From contig JAHFDN010000024.1 in the NCBI GenBank assembly GCA_023248995.1, positions 1 to 45,437 of the forward strand: a stretch of DNA of 45,437 bases, read 5' to 3'. Shown here one piece after another: positions 27,646 through 30,634 of the stretch (position 1 is its first letter; each line of letters starts with the position of its first letter). The notes under the pieces were generated by a model. It was given only the letters and a program-made list of their open reading frames with translations. It searched no databases and was not told the origin of the DNA. This stretch comes from Candidatus Rokuibacteriota bacterium (GTDB lineage: Bacteria; Methylomirabilota; Methylomirabilia; Rokubacteriales; CSP1-6). Made by a program: the position numbers and the translations under genes.

Positions 27646-27720
27646 ATGCGCCAACTGATCGACCCGCATCCTTCGAGAAGAGACGTGGAGGGGCGACAAG
27701 GGGGCATCAGCCGTGAATAG
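27646..27720 (+). CDS. Possible 24-residue leader peptide before the multicopper oxidase
   Basis: AAGGAGGAG at 27626-27634 is one of the best ribosome-binding sites here, but it is far from the oxidase start at 27713. It fits a short frame from ATG 27646 (or GTG 27643), MRQLIDPHPSRRDVEGRQGG..., whose TAG stop overlaps the first codons of the oxidase. A translated leader that couples or regulates the oxidase would explain the layout. Confidence 0.35.
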   Translation: MRQLIDPHPSRRDVEGRQGGISRE

Positions 27721-29209
27721 ACATGTTCTCTCACGGCGGGAGTTCCTCGGCGTGACCAGACGGGCGGGGCTGGGGGCCTTGGCCCTGACGGCCGGGGGCG
27801 GAGCCTTCTTCGCCGGGCAGGCCGGCGCAGCGCAGCGCGAGGCCGTCGGCGGAGTCCGCGAGATTCACCTGGAGGCGCGCGAGATGATCTGGGAGATCGC
27901 GCCCGGCAAGCAGATCAAGGCCATGGCCTACAACGGCCAAGTGCCGGGTCCCGAGATCCGCCTCAAGGAAGGGGAGCGGGTGCGGATCATCCTCAAGAAT
28001 GCACTCTCGGAACCCACGACCATCCACTGGCACGGGGTGGATGTCCCGAATTCGATGGACGGCGTCCCGGGAATCACGCAGAAGGCGGTCCTGCCCGGCA
28101 AGACATTCACCTATGAGTTCGAGGCGACTCCCGCCGGCACGCGCTGGTACCACACCCATTTTCAGGAGCACAAGCAGCTCGACCTCGGCCTTTATGCCCC
28201 TTTGATCATCGAGCCGGCCCGGCCTGATCCGTTCCCATCCGACCGCGAGTACAGCCTGGTCCTCGACGACTGGGCCACTGGGACGGGGCGCCCCCTCCCG
28301 GGCACTGGCGAGGGGAGGGCGGGCGGCCGCGGGGGGATGGGCCGGATGATGGAGGGGATGATGGGCCGCGGGGGCATGGGCGGCATGATGGGCGCCGGCG
28401 GGGAACCCGTGTACGACACCATGACCATCAACGGCAAAGCGTATCCTGCCACCCAGCCCCTCAAGATCCGCAAGGGCGAGCGGGTCCGCCTGCGCCTGAT
28501 CAACGCCAGCGCCGACACCACCCACGTCATTCGCCTGGCCGGCCACCGCTTGAAAGTGACCCACACCGACGGCAATCCCCTCATGCAGCCTGTCGAGGTG
28601 GACGCCGTCCCTCTGGCTCCGGCCGAGCGCTGCGATGTCGCCTTCCTGGCAGACCGGCCGGGCGCCTGGTTCCTCTACTGCACGCAGCCTGGCCACACGG
28701 GAGCCGGTGAGCAGGTCCTCATCGTTTACGAAGGGCACGAGGGGGCCAGGCCGGAACCCGTCTCGGACGGCATCGACGGCCTGAGGCTCTGGCGGTACAA
28801 CCTGGGCCAGGGCCGGGAGATTCTTCCACCTCCGTCAGGGCCGGAGCGGTTCTTCGACCTTACTCTGAGCGGGGGGATGATGGGGTCCGATGTGTGGACC
28901 ATCAACGACAAGCGCTATCCGAACACTGACCCGTTGTCCCTCAGGAAGGGGGATCGGGCGCGGGTGAGGTTCCGCAACATGAGCATGGAGGCCCACCCGA
29001 TGCATCTCCACGGCCAGTCCTTCAAAGTGCTGGCGGTGAACGGCCAGCGGCTTCCCGCGGCGATCGTGAAGGACACTGTGGACGTCGAGGCCCACATGGG
29101 CTCTGTGGTGATCGAGTTCACCGCCCATAACCCCGGCGACTGGTTCTTCCACTGCCACAAGCCGATGCACATGGAAGGCGGCATGATCACCCTGGCGAAG
29201 ATCGGGTGA
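27713..29209 (+). CDS. Tat-exported multicopper oxidase (copper-tolerance type)
   Basis: The 498-residue enzyme has a Tat signal (LSRREFLG) and the four copper-binding motifs in order: TIHWHGVDVP (about 103-112), WYHTHF, HPMHLHGQSF and WFFHCHKPMHMEGGM. These form the type 1 and trinuclear copper sites of laccase-like oxidases that oxidise Cu(I) or phenols in the periplasm. A Met/Gly-rich loop (GRMMEGMMGRGGMGGMMGAG) is inserted between the first and second domains, as in CueO/CopA proteins that bind Cu(I). The GTG start has only a distant AAGGGGG. It overlaps the SCO gene downstream, which supports copper handling as the cluster's theme. Confidence 0.92.
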   Translation: MNRHVLSRREFLGVTRRAGLGALALTAGGGAFFAGQAGAAQREAVGGVREIHLEAREMIWEIAPGKQIKAMAYNGQVPGPEIRLKEGERVRIILKNALSEPTTIHWHGVDVPNSMDGVPGITQKAVLPGKTFTYEFEATPAGTRWYHTHFQEHKQLDLGLYAPLIIEPARPDPFPSDREYSLVLDDWATGTGRPLPGTGEGRAGGRGGMGRMMEGMMGRGGMGGMMGAGGEPVYDTMTINGKAYPATQPLKIRKGERVRLRLINASADTTHVIRLAGHRLKVTHTDGNPLMQPVEVDAVPLAPAERCDVAFLADRPGAWFLYCTQPGHTGAGEQVLIVYEGHEGARPEPVSDGIDGLRLWRYNLGQGREILPPPSGPERFFDLTLSGGMMGSDVWTINDKRYPNTDPLSLRKGDRARVRFRNMSMEAHPMHLHGQSFKVLAVNGQRLPAAIVKDTVDVEAHMGSVVIEFTAHNPGDWFFHCHKPMHMEGGMITLAKIG

Positions 29210-29943
29210 GGTCGATGCCGACGCTCTCACGTCCTCTCGTGCGCGGGCTCGCCCTCCTGCTGCTCTCAGGAGCCGGGGGTCTTGCCGTGTGGGTCTGGCT
29301 GGGGACTTCGGTCCATGGGATCTCCCTATGGCTGAGGTCTTCTGACAAGAGCCAGGGCTCGCTCGAGACGCTGGGCGTGTACGGTGAGGTCCCCGACTTT
29401 GCGCTCAGGGAAAGGAGTGGCCGGCGGGTCACCCGGGCAGATCTTCTGGGGAAGGTGTGGATCGCCAACTTCATTTACACTCGGTGCACGGAAACGTGTC
29501 CCCTCCAGAGCGCCCGGCTGGCCCGGCTTCAGGCCGAGTTCCCCGGCGGAGAGGCCCTTCGGTTCGTCTCGATTACCGTGGACCCGGAACGGGATACCCC
29601 GGCGGTCCTCGCCCGCTATGCCGAGCGGTACGCGGCGGATTCCGTCCGCTGGCTGTTCCTGACCGGAGAGAAGCAGGCGATCTACCACCTGGCCAAGGAG
29701 GGTTTCCGCCTGGGTGTCGTCGATCCCGACGACCAGGCACGGGCAGGAGGGCTTCTCGTCGCGCTTGGGCCTGCCCCTGCTGAAGCCACCCACGGGTCCA
29801 AAGGGCTGGTCATTCACAGCTCACGGTTCGTGCTCGTGGACCGCCAGGAAAGAATCCGCGCCTACCATCTTCCCGATGACCAAGCCTCCCTCGAGCGCCT
29901 CCGTCAGAACGTGAGGATACTTCTACGGGAGAGGGAGCGATAG
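29206..29943 (+). CDS. SCO1/SenC-family copper chaperone or thiol reductase
   Basis: The 245-residue protein has an N-terminal membrane anchor, then a thioredoxin fold with Cys94 and Cys98 (TRCTETCPLQ) and the conserved His in LVIHSSRFVLVDR. These three residues bind copper in SCO proteins, which deliver copper to cytochrome oxidase or reduce its cysteines. SITVDPERDTPAVL is a further family marker. GTG 29206 overlaps the oxidase stop (GTGA); ATG 29215 is an alternative start. The oxidase partner could be the multicopper enzyme upstream or a terminal oxidase elsewhere. Confidence 0.9.
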   Translation: MRSMPTLSRPLVRGLALLLLSGAGGLAVWVWLGTSVHGISLWLRSSDKSQGSLETLGVYGEVPDFALRERSGRRVTRADLLGKVWIANFIYTRCTETCPLQSARLARLQAEFPGGEALRFVSITVDPERDTPAVLARYAERYAADSVRWLFLTGEKQAIYHLAKEGFRLGVVDPDDQARAGGLLVALGPAPAEATHGSKGLVIHSSRFVLVDRQERIRAYHLPDDQASLERLRQNVRILLRERER

Positions 29944-29955
29944 GGTGGGTGCTGC

Positions 29956-30141
29956 ATGGAGAAGACGCTCATGTACGATGCGGTCGTCCGATGGCTCTGG
30001 CCGCCTCCAGGCGCCACGCCCGAAGACAGAGCCCTGGCAATCCTCCGTGCGCGATATGCTCGAGGCGAGACGGCGGGACCTTTCGCTTCGGTTACGCTTT
30101 GCCGGTACATGTCGGAGACAGGGGGAACAGATGGGTCATGA
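29956..30141 (+). CDS. Short SHOCT-like protein, apparently truncated
   Basis: The 61-residue frame begins MEKTLMYDAVVRWLWPPPGA and contains ALAILRARYARGE, the first half of the SHOCT motif (ALxILxxRYARGEI...). After RGE the expected helix is missing, and the typical end (RRRDL) appears in another frame, so a small deletion has probably broken the domain. The stop overlaps the start of the PCYCGC gene by 11 bases. Confidence 0.5.
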   Translation: MEKTLMYDAVVRWLWPPPGATPEDRALAILRARYARGETAGPFASVTLCRYMSETGGTDGS

Positions 30142-30634
30142 GCAGGCGCCAAATACGTCTTTCAGGCTTAGCCGTCGCGACGTGCTTCTCAGTGCGGTTG
30201 GGATGCTCGCGGCCGGCGTGGGACTATCAGTACGCGACTCCCTGGCCGGCCCCGTGACGACCGACGAGCACGGCGACAGAGTCCAAACCGTGCCCCGCGG
30301 CGAGCTGCCCGAGTTTGTCCGAGGGAAGCCTGACGCCGGCCGGTTGTATCGCTTCGCGACCGAGCACGCGGGAGACCTGGAGTACATCCCGTGCTTTTGC
30401 GGCTGCAAGGACATTGGCCATCGGAGCAATCGGGATTGTTATATCAAGAGCCTCAACCGAGACGGGTCGGTCACCTATACAAGTCATGCCTCTACCTGAA
30501 CGCTCTGCCTGGACATCACGCGTGACGTGATGGCGATGAGGGAGGAGGGGAAGGCCCTCCGGGAAATCCGGGCCGCGATCGACACCAAATACGGGAGGTC
30601 GGGGCCTGCGACTCCGACGCCGCTGCCCAAGTAA
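30131..30634 (+). CDS. PCYCGC-type exported protein with in-frame TGA: candidate selenoprotein
   Basis: ATG 30131 (AGGGGGA upstream) opens a 167-residue protein with a Tat-like signal (LSRRDVLLSAVG). The family core is LEYIPCFCGCKDIGHRSNRD then CYIKSLNRDGSVTYTSHAST. At codon 123 there is a TGA (30497-30499). The same frame then continues for 44 codons with the family's normal ending: TLCLDITRDVMAMREEGKAL, REIRAAIDTKYG and a TPTP tail before TAA 30632. In PCYCGC relatives the TGA position is the first Cys of CxxC (HGTRCGVC-like), so reading it as selenocysteine gives UTLC. A hairpin at 30514-30532 fits a bacterial SECIS. The alternative is a point nonsense mutation. The Cys-rich core suggests copper or thiol chemistry in the periplasm. 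Confidence 0.75.
30514..30532 (+). promoter_or_regulatory. Candidate bacterial SECIS hairpin
   Basis: CATCACG and CGTGATG form a perfect 7-bp stem with a five-base loop CGTGA. The loop begins 22 bases after the TGA and has G as its second base. Both the distance and the loop G fit the published bacterial SECIS rules as I know them. It lies inside coding sequence, as bacterial SECIS elements do. Confidence 0.5.

Follow-up and report, generated by a model that had tools for sequence, protein, structure and literature searches.

A PCYCGC-family gene with an in-frame TGA, probably decoded as selenocysteine, in a copper-associated operon of a Methylomirabilota genome

The type examples of bacterial SECIS (selenocysteine insertion element) hairpins are those of E. 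coli formate dehydrogenase. According to published criteria, a bacterial SECIS (bSECIS) element has a loop of 3-9 nt with a G in the first two positions and a stem of 4-16 bp, is located 16-37 nt from the UGA, and has an energy of -7.5 or lower (PMC13188914). The PCYCGC family (PF13798) is listed as the known selenoprotein OS_HP4/CYCXC in a 2026 review citing Zhang and Gladyshev 2007 (PMC13188914), and the NCBIfam model NF041379 carries the name 'CYCXC family (seleno)protein'; the family was therefore already known to contain selenocysteine (Sec). The review also reports 63 predicted selenoprotein genes in a single MAG of Methylomirabilota (PMC13188914). A first-pass annotation of the DNA studied here had proposed Sec decoding of a PCYCGC gene and had regarded the family as not described among selenoproteins. 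The latter statement is wrong in view of these two entries, while the proposed decoding is well supported.

The window, i.e., the whole stretch of 45,437 nt that was analysed, is contig C4 of a draft genome of 2.34 Mb (57 contigs, 97% complete). The PCYCGC gene is part of an operon together with genes for a multicopper oxidase, SCO1, and a TlpA-like protein, and the features of this region are the following:

27713-29209, + strand: multicopper oxidase (copper_res_A-like; Pfam and NCBIfam matches)
29206-29943, + strand: SCO1/SenC copper chaperone-like protein, upstream in the operon (PF02630, E 3e-26)
29956-30141, + strand: small ORF (61 aa) overlapping the start of the selenoprotein gene; no Pfam match
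30131-30634, + strand: PCYCGC-family selenoprotein gene (Pfam PF13798), 167 residues with the TGA read as Sec at 123
30170-30187, + strand: putative twin-arginine (Tat-like) export motif SRRDVL in the N-terminal signal, read directly from the translation
30389-30406, + strand: PCFCGC motif (C88, C90, C92), invariant columns in 35 homologues
30497-30499, + strand: TGA at codon 123, predicted to encode the Sec of UxxC; shared by 81/81 homologues of the phylum
30514-30532, + strand: bacterial SECIS hairpin with a 7-bp stem and the loop CGTGA at 30521-30525, 21 nt from TGA to loop
30647-31189, + strand: TlpA/ResA-like thioredoxin, directly downstream (AhpC-TSA/Redoxin, E 1e-32, ResA-like)

The frame of the PCYCGC gene opens with ATG at 30131 and closes with TAA at 30632, and the TGA at codon 123 is its sole internal stop. 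The read-through protein matches PF13798 at residues 52-166, a stretch that extends to either side of the TGA, with an E-value of 7e-29 (Pfam) and a score of 101 bits (gathering score 25 bits), which places it in the family. As the first-pass annotation had noted, the TGA occupies the position of the first Cys of a CxxC motif, yielding UTLC (UxxC). In an alignment of 35 Sec and Cys homologues, the only invariant columns are C88, C90, C92, H97, C103, position 123, and C126. The structure of the protein was predicted with a mean pLDDT of 88, and searches of the PDB with its sequence and its predicted fold found no relative. A rough scan for additional genes with an in-frame TGA in the window gave no convincing candidate, with a filter that missed the known site as well.

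Several lines of evidence strongly support Sec decoding of the TGA: the genome encodes the Sec machinery, TGA and Cys codons alternate among homologues, TGA is uniformly present in the phylum, the SECIS element is conserved, and a paralogue has a TGA at the same codon. We consider it highly probable (roughly 0.93), on the basis of sequence comparison, that the TGA at 30497 specifies Sec. The hairpin at 30514-30532 would recruit SelB with Sec-tRNA(Sec), upon which Sec would be inserted at the TGA. The product would be a Tat-exported protein of the PCYCGC family with a UTLC (UxxC) site.

Our best guess for the mature protein, from the genomic context and the conserved Cys and His residues, is a role as a copper-linked redox protein or chaperone. 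TlpA-type and SCO-type proteins act in CuA assembly. Outside the cytoplasm, the CxCxC/His/Cys cluster and the selenol/thiol pair might be used in copper-site maturation or thiol redox; the TlpA-like thioredoxin encoded next to it might recycle the protein, and multicopper or cupredoxin/CuA proteins might be the substrates on which it acts jointly with the SCO1-like protein. We give this role somewhat less than an even chance, and the partnership with TlpA and copper proteins, already proposed in the first-pass annotation, is plausible from the operon. A point against it is that the SCO1, TlpA, and copper oxidase neighbours are found in only 6-11 of 45 related loci of the long form (type A), many of these loci being cut by contig ends. 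In Chloroflexota, Gemmatimonadales, and two Methylomirabilota, the PCYCGC gene heads a cluster with genes for a cupredoxin, a NapH-like polyferredoxin, and a cupredoxin-cytochrome c, in an order that is the same for Sec and Cys forms. The arrangement PCYCGC, cupredoxin/COX2, NapH/NosR-like polyferredoxin, and cupredoxin:cytochrome c fusion was observed with Sec forms at L198, L168, L186, L191, and L059, and with Cys forms at L166, L162, L167, and L201. Such a swap of Sec and Cys within a single conserved cupredoxin operon provides naturally paired forms in which the contribution of selenium could be tested. Furthermore, Cys homologues on plasmids are located near cueR, copper oxidases, and metal ATPases, and a heavy-metal (CopA-like) P-type ATPase adjoins the short form in genomes of family f10.

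The selenoprotein might instead serve in general extracytoplasmic thiol redox or in metal or oxidant resistance rather than in the assembly of copper sites. The variety of neighbours, which include heavy-metal P-type ATPases, DsbA or DsbD, cytochromes c, and MacB/FtsX, is in line with such a role, whereas the recurrence of copper-linked ones (SCO1 and the multicopper oxidase in the window, the CopA-like ATPase beside the f10 short form, and the cupredoxin clusters in Chloroflexota) argues for copper-site assembly. A general role is a serious possibility, at odds a shade under even.

Regarding the decoding itself, the UGA could be a true stop that truncates the protein at residue 122, with the downstream codons forming an unrelated conserved element. 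The RefSeq CDS WP_012642643.1 of Thermomicrobium roseum indeed ends at the TGA. Such a truncation is very improbable given that the 44 codons past the TGA lie within the Pfam domain, where they align without interruption to Cys homologues that read straight through; they are the C-terminus of the family, as was proposed from the sequence at first reading.

Sec decoding is also what the codon comparison points to. A PCYCGC match is present in 70 of 95 Methylomirabilota genomes, and among the matches listed none is without a TGA. All 81 aligned sequences of the phylum (79 from relatives and the two genes of the window genome) have TGA in the column of codon 123. Outside Methylomirabilota, the same column holds TGA at 25 and TGC/TGT at 40 of 65 loci, and no other codon was seen in the 81 phylum and 65 outside sequences. 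The TGA forms belong to Chloroflexota, Thermomicrobium, Tectomicrobia, a Myxococcota/Deltaproteobacteria MAG, and Gemmatimonadales, and the TGC/TGT forms to Bacilli, Anaerolineae, Acidimicrobiia, Acidobacteria, and plasmids. The window gene thus has an in-frame TGA aligned with Cys in homologues, and the alternation of the two that the first-pass annotation had suggested looking for exists. Six changes between Sec and Cys are needed on a 116-column tree, at least three of them forced by supported branches; these counts are rough because the tree is short and poorly resolved. One Methylomirabilota homologue (L084, G009:C48), in which the SECIS stem is broken and another in-frame TGA is present, may be decaying.

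The genome encodes the complete set of selA, selB, selC, and selD. The genes for tRNA-Sec (selC, anticodon TCA), selA, and selB are all located on contig C51, and selD on contig C22. SelA is encoded by 83 of 95 Methylomirabilota genomes. Each of the 24 other genomes with a Sec form that were tested (23 of them outside the phylum) has selA or a strong tRNA-Sec match, and both are missing from 5 of the 25 genomes with a Cys form. An in-frame TGA also occurs in the selD gene itself (G000:C22:271492-272433, L022), as would be expected if SelD were a selenoprotein in this genome. A second, partial match to the SelB C-terminus (39.5 bits) is found at a contig start (G000:C32:275-880, L015); it may come from a second SelB or be a piece of a different translation factor.

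The hairpin CATCACG-CGTGA-CGTGATG at 30514-30532 begins 15 nt past the TGA, with its loop at nt 22, and G is the second loop base, as first described. It falls within the published bSECIS criteria (7 bp, loop CGUGA, 21 nt, -7.7 kcal/mol), although the energy is borderline with respect to the threshold of -7.5. Folded alone, it is only modestly better than shuffled sequences (z -1.1 for 37 nt and -2.1 for 64 nt), and a search of Rfam for SECIS families with the hairpin gave no match. Its significance comes from the same hairpin being present in Sec forms of several phyla and absent from Cys forms. The complete 7-bp stem is found in 65 of 67 type-A Sec forms, and the loop is invariably CGTGA or CGGGA. 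The peptide ITRDVM is encoded as ATC ACG CGK GAC GTG ATG (K = T/G) in 53/53 Sec forms and in none of the 6 Cys forms that share it; local codon usage would predict this spelling in about 1.7 of the 53, which are not independent sequences. The two stem pairs that lie at silent sites on both strands of the stem are both formed in all 53 Sec forms and in 0/16 Cys forms with ITxDVM. Moreover, compensatory two-sided changes occur at stem pairs 1, 2, 5, and 7, as in L088, where a D to E replacement is accompanied by a change from G-C to C-G in the stem. Over all sequences, the median energy of the best qualifying hairpin is -7.7 kcal/mol for Sec forms, compared with 0 for Cys forms. With the Cys homologues serving as the control, such constraint at silent sites cleanly demonstrates that selection acts to preserve a SECIS element.

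The UGA could also be read as another amino acid (e.g., Trp or Cys, by near-cognate suppression), the Sec at this position being a prediction from the sequence. This is even less probable than truncation, considering the complete selABCD set, a SECIS-like hairpin under codon-level constraint in TGA forms only, and the alternation of TGA with Cys codons exclusively. A nonsense mutation or a sequencing or assembly error in a Cys gene, with the downstream part as a relic, is conceivable in a draft of 57 contigs since single-base errors occur, and is refuted by the identical TGA in independent assemblies throughout the phylum and at the 25 loci of other phyla, together with the conserved downstream frame and SECIS codons.

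A second PCYCGC gene of the genome, on contig C44, has a TGA at the homologous codon. Its hairpin, shared with relatives, is different (GAGGCGC-TGGAC-GCGTCTC) and lies in nearly the same place. This paralogue (L020:6029-6463, G000) is of the CYCXC/OS_HP4 type and adjoins a multi-domain cytochrome c and a membrane protein with Fer4_5/ethylbenzene-dehydrogenase-like similarity. On NF041379 it scores 132 bits, above the curated cutoff of 90, and together with two short-form Methylomirabilota members spans 121-132 bits. The window protein scores 57 bits, below the cutoff, and the long-form members tested, Sec or Cys and including other lineages, score 52-73 bits; the window branch is therefore a distinct subfamily that NF041379 does not recognise. 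Misannotation follows the branch: the NCBI selenoprotein model misses the tested members, and the T. roseum record is cut at the Sec codon. That T. roseum homologue (L136:4875-5321, NC_011961.1) and the window gene have SECIS hairpins of identical sequence. A broader proposal, that the long form is a separate, undescribed selenoprotein subfamily of Sec-dependent extracytoplasmic factors for CuA/cupredoxin assembly with SCO1 and TlpA, spanning at least Methylomirabilota, Chloroflexota/Thermomicrobiota, Tectomicrobia, Myxococcota, and Gemmatimonadota, appears doubtful as a whole.

Compared with known systems, the window gene is an unannotated subfamily of a known kind of selenoprotein. It shares with OS_HP4/CYCXC (NF041379) the Pfam family, the CxCxC...H...C...UxxC layout, and the position of Sec, but differs from it by a long form, in which an additional insert containing DG precedes the Sec site, and by the SECIS loop, which is CGKGA instead of TGGAY. 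The PCYCGC motif-containing (lipo)proteins of Bacilli (PF13798) have about 31-44% identity in the domain and the same Cys and His positions, but carry a Cys codon in place of the TGA and no SECIS-like hairpin. The hairpin of the window resembles the general bSECIS model (PMC13188914) in its 5-nt loop, where G is the second base and G/U the third, its 7-bp stem, and its distance of 21 nt, whereas its sequence is its own and is undetected by Rfam models.
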